From assembly GCA_025782575.1 (NCBI GenBank), contig JALGYY010000004.1, forward strand, positions 124,001 through 188,000: a stretch of 64,000 nt of DNA, written 5' to 3'. Made by a program: the position numbers and the translations under genes. Below the pieces are notes generated by a model, which saw only the letters and a program-made list of their open reading frames with translations, was not told where the DNA came from and did not search any database. This document shows positions 45,068 to 55,297 of this stretch, piece after piece. The DNA comes from a bacterium. GTDB taxonomy: Bacteria > Orphanbacterota > Orphanbacteria > Orphanbacterales > Orphanbacteraceae. Each line of letters opens with the position of its first letter. Position 1 is the stretch's first letter.

Positions 45068-45826
45068 ATGGTCTCTCTACTACTCGTCTGGTCGGTTGCG
45101 CTCACCGCTGCGGGTGCGCCCGCTTCCGATACACCCGATTTCCAGGCAAGGCTCTCCGACGCACTCGAGACTGTCGAAACGCTGATCGAGGATTCTGACC
45201 GGGAGTCCGCGCTCGACCTCCTTTCCCCTCTTCTTCGGGAAGCTCGTGCCGCAGATGACAGGAGAGCCGAGAGCAGAATTCTCATAACGAGAGGGCGTCT
45301 GCAGATCGGTCGAGGCAGACCGCTTGAAGCAGAGCCTGATCTTGTTTCGGCAGTCGCACTCTCAGAGGCTCTCTCTGATTCGACTCTCCTCTGCGAGGGG
45401 CTCTACCAGCTTGGTTATGCCCACCGTCGCCTTGGCCGTTTTGAGAAATCGAGAAACGCGTTCGAACGCCTGATCCGCGTGGCGACTGCCTCCCGCGACT
45501 CAACTCATATTGCTCGCGGACTGCTGGGAACGACTTCGCCCCTGATCAACGCCGGCTCGCTCGACACGGCGCTTGTCCGTCTCGAAACGGCACTGGAGCT
45601 TTTCCAGCGCTTCCGCCTGGAGAAGGACGAGCTGAACGCCACCCACCTGCTCGGTCTTGTGAACGCCAACCGGGGAGAGAACGAAAAGGCAAAAAAATGG
45701 TGGGAGCAAACGCTCTCCAGATCGAGAGAGCTTGGCTCGCCCATGATGGAAGCGGGAAGCCTGTCGAATCTGGCGACGCTGGAAGCTCTTACCGGGATTC
45801 CTTCTCATGCAGCCGAATACTTATGA
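45068..45826 (+). CDS. N-terminal TPR part of a frameshifted periplasmic TPR-CHAT protease
   Basis: Signal peptide at the start (VSLLLVWSVALTAAG) followed by TPR-like repeats (RAESRILITRGRLQIGRG; LCEGLYQLGYAHRRLGRFEKSRNAFERLI; LNATHLLGLVNANRGENEKAKKWWEQTL). The frame ends at TGA 45824-45826 in the middle of a TPR. Deleting one T of ACTTATG (45821/45822) restores the repeat as ...AAEYYERAYAL and joins it to the next frame. So it is one gene of about 925 residues broken by a single-base insertion or a sequence error. ATG 45050 is an alternative start; neither has an SD, and a CATAAT box at 45055-45060 would give a leaderless message. Confidence 0.75.
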   Translation: MVSLLLVWSVALTAAGAPASDTPDFQARLSDALETVETLIEDSDRESALDLLSPLLREARAADDRRAESRILITRGRLQIGRGRPLEAEPDLVSAVALSEALSDSTLLCEGLYQLGYAHRRLGRFEKSRNAFERLIRVATASRDSTHIARGLLGTTSPLINAGSLDTALVRLETALELFQRFRLEKDELNATHLLGLVNANRGENEKAKKWWEQTLSRSRELGSPMMEAGSLSNLATLEALTGIPSHAAEYL

Positions 45827-47846
45827 GCGGGCATACGCACTCTATCTGGGTGACCAACGCTTTCGCGCCTCTCTGATCCCCGCGCGAAATGCCGCGATCC
45901 TTCGAATCCGGATGGGGCAGTTCGCCGCGGCGCAGTCGATGTTCGAAGACCTCCTTGACCTCTGCCGGGCCAACGGGTATCTCGATCACGAAGCGAATTT
46001 TCTGGTCTCCCTCGGATCGCTTGCCTACAAGCGGGGCCGATTGCAGGAGAGCGCCGGAAACTACCGCGCCGCCCTGGCGATTCTGGAAGATACGCGCGCA
46101 ACTGTTCCACGGAACGAGGCAACCGTCGGTCTCGCACAGGTTTTAAGTGCTGTCGACAGCGTCGCGGAAGCACTCTCCCTGCTGAAAGATCAGGTGTCCG
46201 GCGGAATTGCCGGCCTCCCTCCAAATCAGCGCTTTGCTACAAACATAGAACTCGGGAGAACGCTCCTGCTCAGCGGGCGGCCTGCCGATGCGATCCGATT
46301 GCTCGAACCGATCCCCAGAGAGGCGGAAGAGCTCGGTTTCCGCTCCTTCGAGCTCTCGGCAAAAATCGAGCTGTCCGATGCACACGAGGCGATCGGGGAA
46401 TCCGGGCGCAGCCTTTCCATCCTGCGGGAGGCGGCCACTCTCTGGGAAGAAGAGCGACAAGTCCCGGTTGACATGGAGTGGCGGGAGCAGAGGGGCGAGA
46501 TCGGTTCCGATATCTCGACGCGGATCGCCTCCGTCATGCTCGGTAACACGAGCGCCCCGATAGAGAACCGGCGAATCTCCGATGCGTTCGACGCGTTGCA
46601 GCGTTTCAAAGCCCGCACACTATTGGAGAGAATCTCGCGCCCCGGCACTCCCATTCCGGTCCTCGCCGACCGATCCGTTACGGTGGTAGAGCTGCAGTCA
46701 GGCCTATTGAAACAGGGGGAGCTTCTTCTCGATATCTACTGCGGGGAAGATCGCTCTTTTCTGTTCGCTGTTACGCCGGATTCGCTCCGCGTCACCATTC
46801 TCCCGGGGAGGTCTGTTCTGGAGCGGCGCATCGATCTCCTCCACGAACTCCTGCGGAGCGCGGGGGGAGCGGCCAGTCGAGAGGCGGGCAAAGGGGCGAC
46901 CGAGAGCATGGCCACCTGGCTCTTTGCCGGTGTCTCGGACCTGCTCGCATCGTCAACACATCTTCTCCTCATTCCCGACGGCCCGCTCAATCGGATTCCA
47001 CTCTCAGTCCTGCCCGTCGCAGACAGTGCGGGAGATCGGAAACCGCTGATTTACTCCAAAACCGTCATGCGGTATCCCTCGGCGACTCTTCTCGCCAGGC
47101 TCCGCGACAAGAGCGCTCTGCCGCCAAACGATTCGATTTCGATTCTGGCCGTTGCCGGAAGCCGGGGAGCCAGCGGCGAGGAGCTCCCCGGAGCCCTTCG
47201 AGAAGCCGCCGCCCTGGAGAAGCGCTTTCGACATGTCACCCTACTCGCAAAAGTCAAAGCGCGATCGGGCCTTCGAATCTTTTCGGGGTTCGACGTCCTC
47301 CATTTTGCGGCGCACACAACCATCGACGACCAGAACCCGTGGCTCTCCGCAATTCAGACCGGCCCCTCGGGGGGCCGTGCCATTCGGGCGGCTGAGATTG
47401 CGGGGCTTGATCTCGACGCCCGCCTGGTCGTGCTCTCCGGGTGTGAATCGGCGAGCGGTCGAATTCTGAACGGAGAAGGGGTACTCGGCCTCAGCACCTC
47501 CTTTCTGGGTGCCGGAGTCCCTGCGGTGGTAGCGACGCTCTGGCCGGTAGACGACCGGGCGACCGCCGACCTGATGCTTCTCTTCTACGAGAACCTGGCG
47601 GACGGAGACGCTTTGGGGGTAGCATTGCGGGAGGCACAGGTCGAAATCGCGGGACATCCGGCAACGGAACATCCTTTCTTCTGGGCGGGAATTATCGTGC
47701 TCGGAGACGCCTCGATTCGCCTGCCGATCGAGAGAATCGAGCCCGACCACGGGTGGGCCTTTATCCTTTTTACCCTTCTCGCGCTCCTGGTCATTCTCTG
47801 GCTCTGGAAATCGAGAAAGAATCAAAGCGAGGTCCGGCGTTTGTGA
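45807..47846 (+). CDS. TPR-CHAT caspase-like protease with C-terminal membrane anchor (3' part of a frameshifted gene)
   Basis: TPR repeats continue to about residue 270, followed by a CHAT domain (about 290-640): DGPLNRIPLS (391-400), catalytic histidine H503 in LHFAAH and catalytic cysteine C546 in LSGCES, then LNGEGVLGLS and the ATLWPV strand. A membrane helix follows at about 649-668, with a short basic tail. With the signal peptide of the upstream part, both TPR and CHAT domains should lie in the periplasm. CHAT proteases are clan CD peptidases, and TPR-CHAT is the protease of type III-E craspase. The stop overlaps the ECF sigma gene (GTGA). The ATG at 45807 has no SD and falls inside a repeat, so it is not an independent start. 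Confidence 0.8.
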   Translation: MQPNTYERAYALYLGDQRFRASLIPARNAAILRIRMGQFAAAQSMFEDLLDLCRANGYLDHEANFLVSLGSLAYKRGRLQESAGNYRAALAILEDTRATVPRNEATVGLAQVLSAVDSVAEALSLLKDQVSGGIAGLPPNQRFATNIELGRTLLLSGRPADAIRLLEPIPREAEELGFRSFELSAKIELSDAHEAIGESGRSLSILREAATLWEEERQVPVDMEWREQRGEIGSDISTRIASVMLGNTSAPIENRRISDAFDALQRFKARTLLERISRPGTPIPVLADRSVTVVELQSGLLKQGELLLDIYCGEDRSFLFAVTPDSLRVTILPGRSVLERRIDLLHELLRSAGGAASREAGKGATESMATWLFAGVSDLLASSTHLLLIPDGPLNRIPLSVLPVADSAGDRKPLIYSKTVMRYPSATLLARLRDKSALPPNDSISILAVAGSRGASGEELPGALREAAALEKRFRHVTLLAKVKARSGLRIFSGFDVLHFAAHTTIDDQNPWLSAIQTGPSGGRAIRAAEIAGLDLDARLVVLSGCESASGRILNGEGVLGLSTSFLGAGVPAVVATLWPVDDRATADLMLLFYENLADGDALGVALREAQVEIAGHPATEHPFFWAGIIVLGDASIRLPIERIEPDHGWAFILFTLLALLVILWLWKSRKNQSEVRRL

Positions 47847-48469
47847 TTCCCCCGGGATCTGATCGTCTAACGAAACAAGAGGGTGGTCAGGAGACACCGT
47901 CCGACGAAGAGCTCCTGGCAATAATGGCCCGTCCGGACTCGAAGGACGCCGGGGCGGCGGGGGAAGAGCTATTCGGGCGATACTCGAAACGCGTTTATCT
48001 CTGGTGTCTTCGCTATGTCAAGGATCACGATGCCGCGCTCGATCTCGCACAGGATTCGCTCATGAGTGCCTTTCGATCAATCGAGTCGTTCCAGGGCCGG
48101 TCACGATTCTCTTCGTGGCTCTTTGCGATCACCAGAAACCGATGTCTCTCGTCGCTCCGGCCTGTCTCTCTTTTGCGTGACGACGATCGCGATCCCGATT
48201 CGGTGGCATCGCCCGACGACCCTCCCCTCCAGCAGCTTACCGACTCGGAAAGCGAAGCTTCATTGCTGAAGCTCATTCGCACCACCCTGGAGCCGATCGA
48301 GCAGAAAGTCATCTGGTTCCGGTGTTTCGAAAAGATGCCCGTCGACCAGATCACGGGCATGCTCGCGATCGAGGGGGCGTCGGGAGCGCGGGGAATCATC
48401 CAGAGAGCAAGGCGAAAACTTCGTGCCGCCCTCAAGAAGAGACCGGCGAGCGAGGAGAACGAACAATGA
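47843..48469 (+). CDS. ECF (RpoE-like) RNA polymerase sigma factor
   Basis: 208 residues from GTG 47843, overlapping the CHAT stop as GTGA. Region 2: LFGRYSKRVYLWCLRYVKDHDAALDLAQDSL and AFRSIESFQGRSRFSSWLFAITRN (-10 recognition). Region 4: EPIEQKVIWFRCFEKMPVDQITGML followed by GASGARGIIQRARRKLRAAL. It should direct RNA polymerase to envelope-stress promoters and is likely held by the anti-sigma encoded immediately downstream. Target promoters are not identified; I found no clear GGAAC-type element before the module. Confidence 0.9.
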   Translation: MIPPGSDRLTKQEGGQETPSDEELLAIMARPDSKDAGAAGEELFGRYSKRVYLWCLRYVKDHDAALDLAQDSLMSAFRSIESFQGRSRFSSWLFAITRNRCLSSLRPVSLLRDDDRDPDSVASPDDPPLQQLTDSESEASLLKLIRTTLEPIEQKVIWFRCFEKMPVDQITGMLAIEGASGARGIIQRARRKLRAALKKRPASEENEQ

Positions 48470-49146
48470 GCAGACGAGTGTGTGTTCTGGCTGCAGAGAT
48501 CGGCGACATTCCGAATCTCCCGGACAACGACCCCAAAAGCGTTCACGTGCGAGAGTGTCCTCGTTGCCGCGCCCTCCTCGACTCCTACCTGGCGTTTATG
48601 AGCGGGGGAAACGAAGCGGACGCGGATCGCTTGGTTGAAGCGGAAAACGTTCTTCGCGACAGGATCGCCGCGGAGATCGCGCGAACCGGCGACGTCGGCG
48701 GCTCGCCGGTTCCTAAAAAGAGACGCCCTGAAACGCGAGGACTGAGAGGCGTCCGGCGCGCGTTGCTTGCCACGGCAGCCCTGCTTCTCGTCGCCGTTTT
48801 CCTATACAACATCAACGAAGGAGACGAACGGGAGATTCGCCTTCGCGGAGAACCGAAAACGTCCGAGCAGGAGTGGGGCTGGGGCGACAACCGTGTCGGG
48901 GCGGATGGTTCTCTTCTGCTATCCTGGGAGCCTCTGGCCTCCGCCGATGAGTACGCAATCGACCTCTACGACACGGACCTCGAACTGCTCCGTCGTTTCG
49001 GGCCCTACAAGAAGACCTCCGCAACAATTTCAAATGACGACATCGTCGCGCTCGGTTCGCCCCGGATTATCTTGCTTCGTGTCGTCGCCCGGCGCCGGGG
49101 TGATGATGTCAGCGTTTCTCCGACGTGGTCGGTCGCCCTTCCCTGA
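48466..49146 (+). CDS. Transmembrane zinc-finger (ZAS-type) anti-sigma factor
   Basis: 226 residues, ATGA overlap with the sigma gene. The N-terminal cytoplasmic part carries the ZAS signature H-x3-C-x2-C (H27, C31, C34), one membrane helix is at about 99-116, and the C-terminal 110 residues would be periplasmic and fibronectin-III-like (LLLSWEPLASADEYAIDLYD). Anti-sigmas of this form release the sigma after regulated proteolysis of the periplasmic or membrane part. The neighbouring periplasmic CHAT protease is therefore a natural candidate for the first cut; this is inference from context and topology. Confidence 0.8.
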   Translation: MSRRVCVLAAEIGDIPNLPDNDPKSVHVRECPRCRALLDSYLAFMSGGNEADADRLVEAENVLRDRIAAEIARTGDVGGSPVPKKRRPETRGLRGVRRALLATAALLLVAVFLYNINEGDEREIRLRGEPKTSEQEWGWGDNRVGADGSLLLSWEPLASADEYAIDLYDTDLELLRRFGPYKKTSATISNDDIVALGSPRIILLRVVARRRGDDVSVSPTWSVALP

Positions 49147-49488
49147 CTTTTTCGCCGCCGTCCGCAGACGTATGCGTTTTATCCGTCTACTTTCCTCCGA
49201 CAACCTGTCTAGGGCCGTTGAGGGGGCCCGTATCTCTCTACTTATTTTGATCTTTCAATAAATATTGCTTGACAGGTTTTCAGGCGCAGAATCTCGGTGA
49301 GCCGCGCTCCCTTGTACGCCGGCCGCAAGACGGGCTCTCCTCGTCTCGGATCGATTCAATCAACTCTTCCTGCCGAATCTCTCAAGTTCATTGCCGGTCC
49401 TTGGTGTAGCCCCTCTCCCGAAGCCGAAAAAGGGCATGCTAAAATATCAGCGGGGCTTGGAACGATAAGGGTGGATCGGGAGGGGAAG
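49147..49488 (+). other. 342-base gene-free stretch before the HNH gene
   Basis: Noticeably more AT-rich than its surroundings near 49240-49290 (TTTCAATAAATATTGCTTGACA). It contains an extended -10 element TGCTAAAAT (49437-49445) suitably placed before the HNH gene, but no good -35. I see no coding frame or RNA gene. Confidence 0.45.
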
Positions 49489-50658
49489 ATGGCGATGACG
49501 ACGACGAAAAAGATGGACTCGGTTCTGGCGACGTATTCCAATCATGAGATCATTCGAAAAGGGGATCGGGCGGTTCAGAGCCGACATGAACTCTCCATCG
49601 AGATTCTCGACTGTCTGGTCGAGATCGAGGGGCGATCGATATTTCTAAAGGAAGGGTACTCCTCGCTTTTCGATTACTGCACGCGGAGATGGCACTACTC
49701 ACCCCCTAAAGCGGGGCGGTTCATAGCGGCTGCCCGATGTATGAAGAGCTTTCCAGGTGTGCGGGATTTGCTTTTGCGGCGCAAGATTACACTCTGTGGC
49801 GTCTCCATGATCGCCGGAATCCTAACGGATGAGAACTCCGACAAGATCCTTCAGGAAGTTTCGGGAAAGAGATTCGTGGAGATCGAAAAGATCGTCGCCT
49901 CGCTGAAGATCGCTCCGAAGATCCGGGAGTCGATACGGCCGATCGGACTGCAGGAACCGGCGGGCGGGCGGGATCGAAGCGCCGATCACGAGGATCTCTT
50001 TCAGCCGAATCGAACACTTGGGAACTATCAAATTGATAGTGATTTTGTGGATGAACAGACGGATCAGCTGGGGGGCGACTCTCCAATCGATAACCATAAA
50101 ATGAAACTCGAACAGCGCTACGAAATTCGGTTCTCGGCGAGCGAAGAATTCTGCCGGGACCTGGAGCGGGCGAAGATGGTCTGCTCCCGTAGTTGGAATC
50201 TGGAAGCGATTCTGGGGAGAGCGATCAAGGACCTGCTGGAGAAGCGGGACCCCGAGCAGAAAGAGGCACGGCTGAAGAAGAGAGAAGCGAGGAAGCAGAG
50301 CAAGTCGGAGGGCCAGGCGCAGAGATTTGCGAAAAGCGGTTCCCCGGCCATACCGGCAACCGTGAGCGGCTCAGAAATGGCCGATGAGAAAGAGCCTCCA
50401 GGCAAGGGAGCAGAGGGGCTGCCCGTTCGTTCCCGACATATCCCGGCCCACTTGCGGGACGCGGTGTTCAACCGTGACAAAGGGCGCTGCACCTACACCA
50501 GTTCCCTCGACATCCAATGCGACTCGACCGCTCACCTGCAGATCGATCACATCACACCGTTCTGCCGGGGCGGGGGGCACTCCCTCGAGAATCTGCATCT
50601 CTTGTGCGGCAAGCACAACCGGTTGGCAGCGCGCGAAATGTCACTGACGAAGCGTTGA
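49489..50658 (+). CDS. HNH endonuclease family protein
   Basis: 389 residues from ATG 49489 (GGGAGGGG just upstream; ATG 49495 is also possible). The C-terminal 70 residues are an HNH domain: RHIPAHLRDAVFNRDKGRCTY, QIDHITPF, then ENLHLLCGKHNRLAA, which supplies the H-N-H residues; cysteines of the zinc site are visible (GRC, IQC, LLC). The N-terminal 150 residues form a helical, DUF222-like domain (KEGYSSLFDYCTRRWHYSPPKAGRFI) and are followed by a charged linker. Families of this design occur in many copies in some genomes and may be mobile. A link to restriction or defence is not shown. Confidence 0.82.
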   Translation: MAMTTTKKMDSVLATYSNHEIIRKGDRAVQSRHELSIEILDCLVEIEGRSIFLKEGYSSLFDYCTRRWHYSPPKAGRFIAAARCMKSFPGVRDLLLRRKITLCGVSMIAGILTDENSDKILQEVSGKRFVEIEKIVASLKIAPKIRESIRPIGLQEPAGGRDRSADHEDLFQPNRTLGNYQIDSDFVDEQTDQLGGDSPIDNHKMKLEQRYEIRFSASEEFCRDLERAKMVCSRSWNLEAILGRAIKDLLEKRDPEQKEARLKKREARKQSKSEGQAQRFAKSGSPAIPATVSGSEMADEKEPPGKGAEGLPVRSRHIPAHLRDAVFNRDKGRCTYTSSLDIQCDSTAHLQIDHITPFCRGGGHSLENLHLLCGKHNRLAAREMSLTKR

Positions 50659-51637: not shown

Positions 51638-52261
51638 ATGCCTAATTACACACGTCGACTCGCTGCGATGTCACTCGCCTCCATGCTCGCCTTCCTGGGC
51701 TGGTGCGTGCCCGCAGAGGCAGTTCGCTACAACACGTCAACCCCACCGGCACGGTCGAATTTAGCGTGGTCCGGGGTATTCGCGTCTACCCCGCAGGGGG
51801 GAATCATTCCCCACGGTTCCGTGGTGAGTGCGATGGACGACCTCGGGCAGATCTACGTCGCCGGCACATTTGACCTTCCCGGCGTCGGTCCGATTCGGGT
51901 TGCCTGGTGGGACGGAAGCCACTGGGAGATTATCGGAAACCGTGTCGTCAAAAGTGGCGCCATCGAGTCCCACGTGTCAGCGATCGCTGTGGACGGTGCG
52001 GGCAATATCTATGTTGGTGGATTGTTCACCGACGCCTACCACGATGACGGTTCGTTCGTCTCCTCCCGGAATATCGTCAGGTGGAATGCGGTCGCACTGC
52101 AATGGGAGTCAATCGGAGAGGGGACCGACGGGTGGGTGAGAGATATCGCCGCGCTTCCGAATGGCGACCTTTATGTGGCCGGCGATTTCTCTGTCGTTTT
52201 TAACCCGGGGGGCGGTGCGGTCTCAGCTCCCCACATCGCCAGGTGGGATTCGGGATTATAG
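51638..52261 (+). CDS. N-terminal part of a large secreted propeller protein, ended by an in-frame amber codon
   Basis: 207 residues with SD GAGAGGAG, a signal peptide (about 1-28) and two to three beta-propeller-like repeats with the recurring I-Y-V-G/A-G-x-F strand (QIYVAGTFDL; NIYVGGLFTD; DLYVAGDFS). It ends at TAG 52259-52261. Translation in the same frame continues directly with QWEPVGGGTDG, which matches the repeat in the first part (QWESIGEGTDG), so the amber interrupts one gene of 1,219 codons. A single C-to-T change (CAG to TAG) explains it. Confidence 0.75.
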   Translation: MPNYTRRLAAMSLASMLAFLGWCVPAEAVRYNTSTPPARSNLAWSGVFASTPQGGIIPHGSVVSAMDDLGQIYVAGTFDLPGVGPIRVAWWDGSHWEIIGNRVVKSGAIESHVSAIAVDGAGNIYVGGLFTDAYHDDGSFVSSRNIVRWNAVALQWESIGEGTDGWVRDIAALPNGDLYVAGDFSVVFNPGGGAVSAPHIARWDSGL

Positions 52262-52306
52262 CAATGGGAGCCGGTCGGCGGCGGTACCGATGGCAATTGT
52301 GATCAG

Positions 52307-55297
52307 GTGGCGGTCGACAGCCTCGGCCGGATCATAGTGGCCGGTAGGTTTTCGAATGGGGACGACGGGTCGGGCAATCTGATTCCGTGCTCTTCTGTCG
52401 CACTCTGGAACGGGACGACGTGGATACCATTCGGCGCCGGACTTTCATTCGTCAGCCGGTACAGCGAGTTGCTCGTAACGGCGTCGGGGGACATCCTCGT
52501 GGCTGGAAGCTCCGTCGTGTCGGCCGGCGCCTCCCCGCTTTCCAACGGGGCGCTACTCTGGAACGGTTCCTCCTGGGTTCTTCCCGGCATCGTTCCTCCC
52601 TCCAGCGATATCGCGATGGACGGCGCCGGAAATCTATACAGTGTTACCCCGCCGCAATCGGTGTACCGGATCACGCCCATCGCTCCGGAACAAATCGCCG
52701 TAGCGAGTGGCGGCGAAGCGCCCGTGACGATCGCGGCCAACGAGGCGATTGCCACAACTCACGCCTATTTGGGCGGTCTTTTCTCCTCCCTGGAGCATGG
52801 CGGAAACGTATACCAGATCACGAACGACGCCATGTGGGACGGGAATACGTGGAGCGCTCTTCGCGGTGTTGGCGGAGCGAACGGCCGGATCTACGCGGTC
52901 GGCGACGACGACAGGGAATGGGGCGCGGCGACCGCTTTTGCCGTGGGCGGCGCATTCACCAGGATCGGGGGAGTCAGCTCGATGAACGTCGCGCTGTTTG
53001 AGGGAGATGGCTGGATCCCCCTCGGCGGCGGCGTGAACGACACCGTGTTCGCGACTGCACTCGAAACGTTCCGCTTGCCGGCTGATGTCTATGTCGGGGG
53101 CTGCTTCCTGTCGGCGAACAACCCTGACGGCACCGTCCTTTCTGTTTCGAACGTGGCGCGCTTTGAGCGTTTCTCGAACCAATGGGAAGGCCTGGGTGGC
53201 GGCGTGAACGGGAAAGTTCGTGCATTGCACTTCGTCCAGGGGCCGGGGCTCGGGTTCCCTGACTATCTCTACGTTGGCGGCGAGTTCACCGAGGCGGTGC
53301 AGACAAACGGCGACACGCTCTCCGCTACAGGGCTCGTTCTCTGGAACAGTGTGAGCGAGGAGTGGGAGGCGGTGGGTGACGTGAACGGCGGAACCGCCAC
53401 TGTCTACGACATCTCGTCCGGTTTCCTCTTTGCAGACCCCACCCTTTTTATCGGAGGAAACTTCCTCGGCGTGTCCGGCTCAGGTGGAGCGATCGACGTC
53501 AGAAATGTGGCGAGAATGCATCTCGACAACCTCACCTGGTCCGCGCTTGGGGAGGGTGTCGACAACACGGCATACACGGTCAGTCCCTACTCGAGGAATC
53601 CGGCGGTTGTCGTTGTGGGCGGCGAATTCCTGAACGCCATCGATGCCGGTGGCGGTCTCGTCCCGGCAAACTATGCCGCCTGGTGGACACCGGACCAATG
53701 GACTCCGGTAGCTGGCGGCTTTGATGCGCCCGTTCGCTCAATTGCCCTGGGTAAGGTTTTCGGCGGCGACTTCACGACGATTTTTCCCCCGTCCGGCCCA
53801 CCGGTCACAGCAAACCACACCGCATTGGGAGAGTGGCCGTCCTTCGATCTCGAGGCGCTCGGGACCGGCACGAACGGTCCGGCGCACAGCGTGCTCGGCG
53901 TTATCCCGTGTTTCTACTGGCTTGGTGAAACCGCATACTTCGGCGGCGACTTCACTCTGGCCGGAGGTGGTCTCGCCACGGGGGTCGCGAAATGGCAGTA
54001 CCACTACACCCCGCCCGGCCCGAACGTGGTGATCGGATCAGGAACCCCCTGTGGCGCCGGTTGCTCCGGCGGGGCAGTGCAGCTCAACTGCGATGTACTC
54101 GAGAAGCGGCAGAATACCGCGCCTGCATTCCAGAATCTGGGATTTCGTGACGCCGGAATCGCAGAGGGCCTCCCACTGGATACCCTTTTCTCGATCGACC
54201 TGACCGAATCGGGGAGCGGGCTCCCCGTGGCGACGTTCGACAGCCTTCGTCTCGGCCGGGGCCGGGATCATTCAATCGTTCTGATCGGCCTGGACGATCC
54301 CTCTTCGTACGCGCCGAACCCGGAAGGAGTTCCCACCGATTTTTCCATGGTAGTCACAGAGGGAGGCGCTTCCGGGTCCGCCTTCACTGGTGATGTCCGG
54401 GTGGTCTTCGTGCATGGGGTGACCGACGCGCCGCCACTCGACATCAGTTCTTCTCTGAGTGGCGCGCTCTTGACCGGTTTCGGGTATGGTGCGGCGAGCG
54501 ATGTCGTGATGCTTTCTCCCGAGGTGCATCACCTTGATCTCCTCGGGAGCTCAGACGGAATCTCCCGAGGAACGCATGACATCAATCTTGTCGGTCTCGA
54601 GGATCGCTTCGTGACGATACTCTTGTCGGGATTCGACGACCCCGCCTCGAATGGTGGAGGGTCGCCGATCGGCGCAAACGGGTATGCGGAAGGGAAAGAT
54701 GTTTCGGCCGATAACGACGGCGACGGAGTGCGGGACATTTTCGATGCGTGTCCGGCGTCGGAAACGGCCGCCAATTTGACTGTGCGCGGATGTGAAAGCG
54801 GTGTGTCGAACCGCGTCCTCGCGAGCGGCTGTACGTTCGCGGATGAGATTGCGGTCTGCGACGCAGCATCAGCAGATCTCCGCGGGTTCTCGGCCTGCGT
54901 CCTTTCCCTTCTCGCGGATTGGCGCCAATCGGGCAATCTTTCCGGGCCCGAACGACTCGCGATCAGCCGGTGTCTGAGGATATCCGTTCGTTTAAAGGGT
55001 TCTGGGGCGGACCGCTCGCTGAACGCGCTCGCCCTTCGGGTCAACTCGAACCCCGTACGGAACACCGCCTCGTTCGCCATAACTGTTCCGGCTTCCTCTT
55101 CTGCAACGCTCGAGGTCTTTTCCCCGAGCGGCCGCCGGGTCAGGAGTTTCCCCGTGCCCGCTATCGGGCCGAATGGCGCCGACTATGCGTGGGACCTCTT
55201 GGACCGTTCCGGCCGGCGCATCACGAGCGGTGTCTACTTTGTTCGTCTCGCAACAGAGAGAAACGCGATCGTAAGAAAGGTAATTGTGGTGGAGTGA
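52307..55297 (+). CDS. C-terminal part of the propeller protein with TSP3-like repeat and FlgD/T9SS-type C-terminal domain
   Basis: In the same frame as the 51,638 fragment. GTG 52307 is the first possible start after the amber but has no ribosome-binding site. It contains many more IYVGGxF-like blades (to about residue 560), a globular region, a calcium-type thrombospondin-3-like repeat (DNDGDGVRDIFDACP, about residue 801) and a final 80-residue Ig-like domain (NPVRNTASFAITVP, LDRSGRRITSGVYFVRL) of the FlgD/Por-secretion type, used as an outer-membrane export or attachment signal in FCB-group relatives. Extracellular function is unknown. Whether the protein is still made depends on readthrough. 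Confidence 0.75.
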   Translation: MAVDSLGRIIVAGRFSNGDDGSGNLIPCSSVALWNGTTWIPFGAGLSFVSRYSELLVTASGDILVAGSSVVSAGASPLSNGALLWNGSSWVLPGIVPPSSDIAMDGAGNLYSVTPPQSVYRITPIAPEQIAVASGGEAPVTIAANEAIATTHAYLGGLFSSLEHGGNVYQITNDAMWDGNTWSALRGVGGANGRIYAVGDDDREWGAATAFAVGGAFTRIGGVSSMNVALFEGDGWIPLGGGVNDTVFATALETFRLPADVYVGGCFLSANNPDGTVLSVSNVARFERFSNQWEGLGGGVNGKVRALHFVQGPGLGFPDYLYVGGEFTEAVQTNGDTLSATGLVLWNSVSEEWEAVGDVNGGTATVYDISSGFLFADPTLFIGGNFLGVSGSGGAIDVRNVARMHLDNLTWSALGEGVDNTAYTVSPYSRNPAVVVVGGEFLNAIDAGGGLVPANYAAWWTPDQWTPVAGGFDAPVRSIALGKVFGGDFTTIFPPSGPPVTANHTALGEWPSFDLEALGTGTNGPAHSVLGVIPCFYWLGETAYFGGDFTLAGGGLATGVAKWQYHYTPPGPNVVIGSGTPCGAGCSGGAVQLNCDVLEKRQNTAPAFQNLGFRDAGIAEGLPLDTLFSIDLTESGSGLPVATFDSLRLGRGRDHSIVLIGLDDPSSYAPNPEGVPTDFSMVVTEGGASGSAFTGDVRVVFVHGVTDAPPLDISSSLSGALLTGFGYGAASDVVMLSPEVHHLDLLGSSDGISRGTHDINLVGLEDRFVTILLSGFDDPASNGGGSPIGANGYAEGKDVSADNDGDGVRDIFDACPASETAANLTVRGCESGVSNRVLASGCTFADEIAVCDAASADLRGFSACVLSLLADWRQSGNLSGPERLAISRCLRISVRLKGSGADRSLNALALRVNSNPVRNTASFAITVPASSSATLEVFSPSGRRVRSFPVPAIGPNGADYAWDLLDRSGRRITSGVYFVRLATERNAIVRKVIVVE

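Follow-up and report, generated by a model that had tools for sequence, protein, structure and literature searches.

The window, the whole 64,000-nucleotide stretch of DNA that was analysed, contains on its forward strand three adjacent genes for a TPR-CHAT protein, an ECF sigma factor and a transmembrane anti-sigma factor (ASF). The TPR-CHAT gene is spread over two open reading frames (ORFs). Its 5' part (45068-45826, 252 aa) encodes a signal peptide, with the hydrophobic N-terminus MVSLLLVWSVALTAAGAPA, and TPR repeats (TPR_12, E=2e-13), while its 3' part (45807-47846, 679 aa) encodes TPR repeats, the CHAT domain and a C-terminal transmembrane (TM) helix (47751-47810, about residues 649-668, hydropathy 2.4) followed by a K/R-rich tail. 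The Pfam CHAT model matches the 3' part with E=2e-56 (192 bits versus a cut-off of 24), which identifies a CHAT-domain protease (PF12770). The catalytic residues of this part, H503 (HFAAH, 47313-47315) and C546 (LSGCESASG, 47442-47444), are invariant in 34 aligned CHATs, confirming the pair named in the initial annotation. An assignment of an S1 acidic residue by analogy with separase was dropped, as the position in question does not align with a conserved acid. The AF2 model of the 3' part (pLDDT 88) matches Csx29, separase and DdvA in the PDB; for sequence searches of the PDB a CHAT-only profile was used, because unspecific TPR matches swamped the full-length profile. PADLOC gave only weak partial matches for the CHAT protein and assigned it to no defence system. 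The host genome encodes 8 CHAT genes.

The two ORFs are read in different frames, with 20 bp in common (45807-45826). Skipping one base at the junction, TAC TTA TGA GCG, would give ...AAEYLERAYALY..., and, as each CHAT homologue is one uninterrupted ORF of about 890-960 aa, a one-base break is assigned to the window copy, owing to either an assembly error or a real mutation. Programmed frameshifting is not favoured, as the junction is without a classical slippery heptamer and the homologues are all single ORFs. Thus, of the architecture first described, the signal peptide, TPR, CHAT and TM parts stand, but the single open frame gives way to two overlapping ones.

The ECF gene (47843-48469, start codon uncertain) matches Sigma70_r2 (Pfam, E=8e-16) and, over the cut-off, TIGR02937 (E=8e-19, residues 40-197); Sigma70 regions 2 and 4 are present without region 3, as in group IV (ECF) sigma factors. 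At its start lies a promoter-like element, TGTGATT-N15-CGTC (47842-47867), probably the ECF's own target promoter. The GTGA overlap between CHAT and ECF noted initially is literally present (GTG at 47843, TGA at 47844), but the same place holds the conserved TTTGTGATT...CGTC element, so that GTG 47843 may not be the ECF start. Elements of the form TGTGA-N16-18-CGTC occur at the gene start in 19 of the 91 ECF genes of the group, versus 0.3 expected, and the sigma factor probably autoregulates through TGTGA-N17-CGTC. Promoter-like motifs were also found 5' of neighbouring genes for beta-helix, FG-GAP, FlgD_ig and lipoprotein-type secreted proteins. One secreted-protein gene near the triplet (51638-55297) has an in-frame stop.

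The ASF gene (48466-49146, 226 aa, AF2 pLDDT 85) is conserved with the ECF gene, which it overlaps by ATGA at 48466. Its product bears a zinc-type H-x3-C-x2-C motif on the cytoplasmic side (HVRECPRC, 48544-48567; H27/C31/C34), a single TM helix (48745-48813, residues 94-116) and a periplasmic domain (48913-49143, residues 150-226), all as initially annotated; AF2 and a Foldseek search of the PDB now give this domain an FN3 fold. With such a cytoplasmic N-terminus, one TM helix and a gene beside an ECF, the protein belongs with the ZAS anti-sigma factors, its sigma binding being putative. The H-x3-C-x2-C motif occurs in 75 of 96 relatives and is missing in some that are still linked to their partners, so it does not define the ASF family as a whole. 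An NCBIfam anti-sigma model reaches E=8e-6, below that model's cut-off, and Pfam returned no domain above cut-off. By sequence, the ASF has no match among solved structures, and hence none to Csx30.

Conservation and predicted topology of the triplet

The triplet is conserved in several little-known bacterial phyla. Among 42 loci selected by CHAT in a second phylum, 29 hold all three genes, arranged in four ways (14 ECF-ASF-CHAT, 13 CHAT-ECF-ASF, one convergent and one divergent); in two of these 29 the ECF is only remotely similar (E about 1e-6). The window ECF is 45% identical to that of a syntenic triplet in genome G031. A reverse search in a third phylum found a CHAT gene adjoining 22 of 27 evaluable ECF-selected genes and a TM anti-sigma beside the ECF in 29 of 29. 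Up to five linked triplets occur per genome. The expectations of the initial annotation, that CHAT-ECF-ASF sets would be conserved among relatives and that the sigma/anti-sigma pair would usually have a CHAT gene beside it, are thereby borne out. These counts come from whole-genome searches, used in place of a contig scan with the CHAT alignment whose patterns were too specific and retrieved the G031 contig only.

Linkage is not universal. Eight CHAT-selected loci have a CHAT gene without ECF or ASF nearby, and among the genomes that hold ECF-ASF pairs without an adjacent CHAT, several encode an unlinked CHAT and one (G144) has none over the cut-off. Six other genomes of the window's family were searched and yielded no further triplet. 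When partners were swapped within genomes, the observed correlation was reached in 0 of 2000 swaps for CHAT-ECF, 23 of 2000 for CHAT-ASF and 2 of 2000 for ECF-ASF; such co-divergence can also stem from operon co-inheritance.

An N-terminal hydrophobic segment together with a C-terminal TM helix followed by at least two K/R is found in 36 of 37 CHAT relatives, and from these features the catalytic part is predicted to be periplasmic. The alternative of a cytoplasmic CHAT finds no backing here: as first proposed, the predicted topology puts CHAT and the FN3 domain in the same compartment, the periplasm. In locus L075 of genome G099, CHAT is even joined to the membrane/FN3 half of an ASF, without the zinc domain, as a CHAT-TM-TM-ILRG-FN3 fusion.

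A conserved arginine next to the membrane

About 16 residues outside the membrane, the flexible ASF linker contains a near-invariant Arg, usually within [V/L/M]-R-G; in the window this is L126-R127-G128 (48841-48849), located by AF2 within a low-confidence coil between the TM helix and FN3. This linker motif is the new element here. The alignment places the Arg in 93 of 96 ASFs, an upper estimate, as gaps in the linker let the Arg be shifted into register. A gap-free [VILMF]RG pattern is present in 65 of 96 linkers; shuffling gives 7.5 (maximum 17), and other parts of the protein give 1-6. The Arg is missing from three ASFs, precisely the three that have no ECF and no CHAT beside them, and only 1 of 16 other anti-sigmas from the same genomes has the motif (Fisher p=4e-6). 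About eight ECF-ASF pairs without an adjacent CHAT still keep it. Such an Arg in a flexible segment would suit a site-1 substrate of regulated intramembrane proteolysis (RIP), and we propose that it marks the CHAT site-1 cut, after R127 in the window. Both this candidate site and the CHAT-TM-TM-FN3 fusion support the reading that CHAT cuts the ASF.

Proposed mechanism and rival readings

In the model that we favour, the cytoplasmic N-terminus of the ASF would hold the ECF sigma factor at the inner membrane. The signal peptide would export TPR-CHAT and the C-terminal TM helix tether it, leaving the caspase/separase-type His-Cys protease in the periplasm beside the FN3 domain. The TPR/FN3 part would sense a signal from the envelope, probably the amount of exported surface proteins or the state they are in, and CHAT would then cleave the linker beside the membrane, on the C-terminal side of the conserved Arg ([V/L/M]-R|G). 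A site-2 protease of M50/RseP type could then release the cytoplasmic ASF fragment and free the sigma factor; M50 proteases are encoded in the genome. Once freed, the sigma would use TGTGA-N17-CGTC to transcribe its own gene, and in relatives it would also transcribe genes for secreted proteins next to it. We consider it fairly probable that the whole operates in this way, as a self-contained envelope module. The idea of the initial annotation that the CHAT protease makes the first cut freeing the sigma factor, independently of CRISPR, is thus supported, the cleavage itself being a step that we infer.

Two other readings assign CHAT a different task. It could be a signal sensor or scaffold that, bound to the FN3 domain, governs access to the linker by exposing or shielding it, the cut at the Arg being left to another periplasmic protease, of DegS/HtrA type or otherwise trypsin-like. 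In the structurally solved DdvA, CHAT indeed belongs to the anti-sigma itself, and the matched stretch, with one His and the Cys, is cut short and without the first His of HxxxH; the ECF-ASF pairs that keep the R-G motif without an adjacent CHAT would also fit. However, the His and Cys of the triplet CHATs are invariant, unlike those of a decayed sensor domain, and the Arg is both lost in ASFs without ECF or CHAT neighbours and, by the pattern count, absent from nearly all other anti-sigmas of the same genomes, the expected targets of a general protease, so that we judge this reading unlikely. CHAT could instead be mainly an output, processing ECF-controlled exported proteins while FN3 monitors the substrates or CHAT activity, and co-occurrence would then reflect a shared regulon rather than ASF cleavage. 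The motifs before secreted-protein genes agree with this, as does the position of CHAT downstream of the ECF promoter in ECF-ASF-CHAT loci. In CHAT-ECF-ASF loci, by contrast, CHAT precedes the motif, out of reach of that promoter, and neither the linker Arg nor the CHAT-FN3 fusion is explained; we regard it as decidedly improbable.

A chance neighbourhood of common families, without functional link, might be suspected from the number of CHAT genes in the host genome and from the many ECF-like candidates in relatives, but it is refuted by the counts (linkage in three phyla, in two orders and three orientations and whichever gene the search began from, together with co-divergence and a fusion) and retains next to no credibility. 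The window copy could also be a decaying pseudogene at a locus no longer working as described, given the frame break in CHAT and the stop in the nearby secreted-protein gene (51638-55297). Yet the ECF, the ASF, the promoter-like element and the active site and TM helix of CHAT are all intact, and one error in the sequencing or assembly of a draft genome would be enough to explain the break, which makes decay quite unlikely.

Relation to known systems

The favoured model, in which CHAT cuts the ASF, resembles RIP of the RseA/DegS/RseP type in its single-pass anti-sigma and its proposed first cut in the juxtamembrane periplasmic segment, followed by M50; the site-1 protease would here be a caspase-fold Cys protease from the same gene cluster instead of DegS. 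Separase (peptidase C50) shares with the window CHAT a TPR-like superhelix and a caspase-fold protease (PDB sequence match, E=6e-9), and it cuts after Arg; unlike the triplet CHAT, it is eukaryotic, cytosolic or nuclear, and acts on cohesin.

DdvA-DdvS of Myxococcus xanthus (PDB 8rot, 8rw5; Bernal-Bernal et al. 2024, Sci Adv 10:eadp1053) also combines a transmembrane anti-sigma and an ECF with the TPR-CHAT fold, which is periplasmic in DdvA, and DdvA is a top structural match of the window CHAT, the CHAT region matching by sequence as well (E=1e-8). In DdvA, however, anti-sigma and TPR-CHAT form one chain, whereas they are separate genes in all triplets; its CHAT stretch is C-terminally short and has lost the first His of HxxxH, whereas the triplet CHATs have an intact active site; and it differs from the triplet ASF, with its FN3 domain and R-G linker. 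The L075 fusion has the reverse order and is without a zinc domain. The DdvA active site is reported to have been described as incomplete, with autoproteolysis in trans as a suggestion.

Craspase (Csx29-Csx30-CASP-sigma, type III-E CRISPR) has the same set of functions, namely a TPR-CHAT protease of the same fold, a sigma inhibitor and an ECF-type sigma. It is cytoplasmic and RNA-guided, whereas the triplet CHAT is predicted to be periplasmic, and Csx30 is not a zinc/TM anti-sigma, unlike the triplet ASF. Moreover, craspase is defined by a Cas7-11/gRAMP effector, crRNA and Csx30, and the conserved set here by CHAT, ECF and ASF. The cut that Csx29 makes in Csx30 falls between residues 427 and 429 rather than at a defined Arg (PMC10028731).

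The conserved triplet and the near-invariant Arg beside the membrane suggest a dedicated alarm that would work by cut and release, without any CRISPR system. We give even odds to the broader claim that several phyla encode, for each ECF-ASF pair, one active, membrane-tethered periplasmic caspase-fold site-1 protease cutting after the juxtamembrane Arg. Such an arrangement would be the envelope equivalent of craspase, independent of CRISPR, and a relative of DdvA that is split into separate proteins and active. If so, the many bacterial TPR-CHAT proteins of unknown role could be given a definite substrate, a place of cleavage and a read-out, and sigma release controlled by caspase-fold proteases would be a general bacterial envelope strategy, with craspase and DdvA as special cases.

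The notion of a CHAT-controlled sigma factor is less isolated than initially held, given DdvA in the PDB and the conserved CHAT neighbours of ECF54 sigmas, for which proteolytic control was proposed (PMC8999054). ECF54 contexts (subtilase, carboxypeptidase, CHAT) are described without an anti-sigma, whereas a TM anti-sigma accompanies the ECF here. The host genome of the window also has a separate ECF54-like locus (L012), with the order subtilase-ECF-TPR-CHAT.

The TPR-CHAT, ECF sigma and anti-sigma genes of the window

Genes for a TPR-CHAT protease, an ECF sigma factor and a transmembrane anti-sigma factor (ASF) lie together at 45068-49146, all on the + strand (ORFs, Pfam), on contig C17 of the host genome (4.88 Mb in 49 contigs). 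In the Pfam search, CHAT scored 192 bits (cut-off 24) and the Sigma70_r2 domain of the ECF 58 bits; the anti-sigma factor had no match. The initial annotation had described this arrangement and its catalytic pair, H503 and C546 of the 3' ORF, and both residues are indeed invariant in 34 homologues. Its description holds with two corrections, as the TPR-CHAT gene is split over two frames and the ECF start is uncertain. The former consists of two ORFs (45068-45826 and 45807-47846) overlapping by 20 bp. Because homologues are single ORFs (signal-peptide-like N-terminus, TPRs, CHAT and C-terminal transmembrane segment, TM), and skipping one base at the frame junction gives ...AAEYLERAYALY..., a normal TPR, the window's copy carries a one-base break, either error or mutation. 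The ECF start codon is uncertain because the GTG at 47843 falls within TGTGATTCCCCCGGGATCTGATCGTC, a promoter-like element recurring in the ECF group.

Directly downstream of the triplet lies a gene for an HNH endonuclease-domain protein (49390-50655), of 13E12-repeat type by appearance. Further on, a secreted FlgD-tailed beta-repeat protein (51638-55297) is interrupted by an in-frame stop into two ORFs sharing one frame (51638-52261 and 52307-55297); after CHAT, it is the second disrupted gene in this neighbourhood.

Conservation and cognate pairing of the triplet

The initial annotation had proposed that CHAT may make the first cut in the anti-sigma factor, freeing the sigma independently of CRISPR. 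This proposal survives every test named with it, namely conservation of the triplet, location of CHAT, and presence of CHAT beside ECF-ASF pairs. An anti-sigma search over 98 genomes found a match in G031, a MAG of another family, where the triplet has the gene order and strand of the window (identity 45% for ECF, 37% for CHAT, 27% for anti-sigma). Within the phylum of G031, 50 of 80 genomes had a match to CHAT (E<=1e-40), about 40 of these matches covering most of the protein. We scanned 42 CHAT-selected loci (40 from this phylum, the window and G031), of which 29 held complete triplets: 14 ordered ECF-ASF-CHAT, 13 CHAT-ECF-ASF, one convergent and one divergent, the ECF of two of them (L090, L097) being only remotely similar to the group (E about 1e-6). 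Eight loci had CHAT only (two with an ECF-ASF pair about 3-4 kb off, one truncated at a contig end); the remaining five had partial sets, several of these likewise truncated. In a second class (L156, L157, L159, L163-L171, L176), CHAT is longer (about 1100-1900 aa) and ECF and ASF diverge further, the order again being CHAT-ECF-ASF.

In the unbiased reverse test, an ECF profile searched against 386 genomes, in most cases a single one from each family, matched only G000, G031 and G409. The group's ECF occurs in 15 of 47 genomes of the phylum of G409, where, among ECF-selected genes, the anti-sigma adjoins 29/29 and CHAT 22 of the 27 evaluable. An unlinked CHAT often goes with an unlinked ECF-ASF pair of the same genome (L094 and L146 in G137; L103 and L147 in G139; L088/L093 and L154 in G104; L109 and L149 in G158). 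No further triplet was seen in six other genomes of the window's own family, and only G001 among them had an orphan anti-sigma.

Partner distances between CHAT, ECF and ASF correlate (Mantel r about 0.5). When partners are swapped among the triplets of one genome, the correlation falls, and the observed value is reached in 0/2000 swaps for CHAT-ECF, 2/2000 for ECF-ASF and 23/2000 for CHAT-ASF. The partners therefore form cognate sets, although co-inheritance of the operon plays a part. One genome, G141, holds five class-1 triplets (L081, L083, L086, L098, L101) and one of class 2 (L167), an expansion of apparently cognate protease-sigma modules.

Topology, linker motif and proposed proteolysis

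Of 37 CHAT proteins, 36 have a hydrophobic N-terminal segment together with a C-terminal TM that two or more K/R follow; seven further CHATs encoded by the host genome stop at the CHAT domain and lack this TM. In the window's anti-sigma, positive charges precede the single TM, and AlphaFold2 (pLDDT 85) predicts a helical N-terminal domain and a TM (94-116), followed by a coil of low confidence (around 117-149) and a beta-sandwich (150-226) matching FN3 domains in Foldseek. By the positive-inside rule, both CHAT and FN3 domains are predicted to be periplasmic. In one genome (G099, L075), CHAT is fused to the membrane/FN3 half of the anti-sigma (TPR-CHAT-TM-WRRGARPAW-TM-...ILRG-FN3, active His and Cys present), and the predicted hairpin would place both outside domains in one compartment.

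Between TM and FN3, 93 of 96 anti-sigmas have Arg at one column, usually within [V/L]-[L/M/V]-R-G, the most conserved position there apart from one proline that looks alignment-driven. Counted without gaps, [VILMF]RG stands no further than 30 residues from the TM in 65/96 (median distance 16 residues); shuffled linkers gave 7.5 on average (maximum 17), and other stretches of 30 residues from these proteins gave 1-6. Among 16 different transmembrane anti-sigmas of the same phylum, most of them beside an ECF, the pattern occurs in one (Fisher p=4e-6). The motif falls in the predicted flexible coil. The three anti-sigmas lacking Arg (L182 of G001, L160 of G098, L161 of G099) coincide exactly with those without adjacent ECF or CHAT; L160 and L161 are of one family and not independent. 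Pairs without adjacent CHAT (L143, L145-L147, L149-L151, L154) keep the motif, whose distribution thus follows the ECF-ASF system rather than just a neighbouring CHAT. The zinc motif is wholly lost in eight anti-sigmas that still adjoin ECF and/or CHAT (L110, L111, L190, L193, L233, L236, L238, L240).

Regulated intramembrane proteolysis with CHAT as site-1 protease is the most economical reading of the observed linkage, predicted topology, conserved active site, linker motif and promoter motif. We infer that, upon a signal, periplasmic CHAT would cut the anti-sigma after the conserved Arg (site 1), an M50 protease, a family with four matches in the host genome, would then cut in the membrane (site 2), and the sigma would be set free after both cuts. 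Because clan CD peptidases such as separase prefer Arg, this residue would be a natural P1 for CHAT.

Candidate regulon and related systems

TGTGA-N16-18-CGTC, found in upstream regions, stands at the start of 19/91 ECF genes, where 0.3 would be expected; the spacer is mostly 17, and the ECF gene of the window is among the 19 (47842-47867). In relatives the element further occurs ahead of neighbouring genes, as a rule some 75 nt from the start codon; these genes encode a beta-helix protein, FlgD_ig-tailed surface proteins, an FG-GAP protein, a lipoprotein and small proteins that are Spy/CpxP-like by eye. Two of these small exported proteins lie between CHAT and ECF-ASF (L079:2201-2608; L080:4500-4913) and have no Pfam match. 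In the window's own genome, TGTGATT-N14-16-CGTC occurs nine times (reversed pattern, 0), once before a putative lipoprotein gene. Judging from motif positions, the output likely comprises autoregulation and a secreted-protein regulon.

Structural matches of the CHAT model include separase, the Csx29/TPR-CHAT protein of craspase, and DdvA (8rot, 8rw5), a transmembrane anti-sigma factor from Myxococcus; at the sequence level, a CHAT-only profile likewise matches separase (6e-9), DdvA (1e-8) and Csx29 (5e-6). In craspase, Csx29 cuts Csx30, inhibitor of CASP-sigma, a control that its authors liken to RseA/DegS (PMC10028731); DdvS governs a CBASS-CRISPR defence island (PMC12288465). The present module differs from each of these systems in having a protease that is separate, membrane-tethered, predicted periplasmic and apparently active, and a single-pass anti-sigma with FN3 and R-G linker; it is therefore neither a craspase member nor of the DdvA type.

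Other CHAT genes of the host genome lie in a subtilase-ECF-TPR-CHAT cluster (L012, C17:98000-112000), resembling described ECF54 contexts, and in the order ECF, protein kinase with DUF4384, CHAT and FlgD-tailed secreted protein (L014, C17:208000-223000), a kinase-linked CHAT/ECF variant whose ECF best matches a Planctomycetaceae-type model. At L015 (C24:44000-58000), ECF and CHAT flank a small protein that combines a stretch resembling HxxxxCxxC with a beta domain of the carboxypeptidase-regulatory-like type; this may be a third way of pairing an anti-sigma with CHAT.
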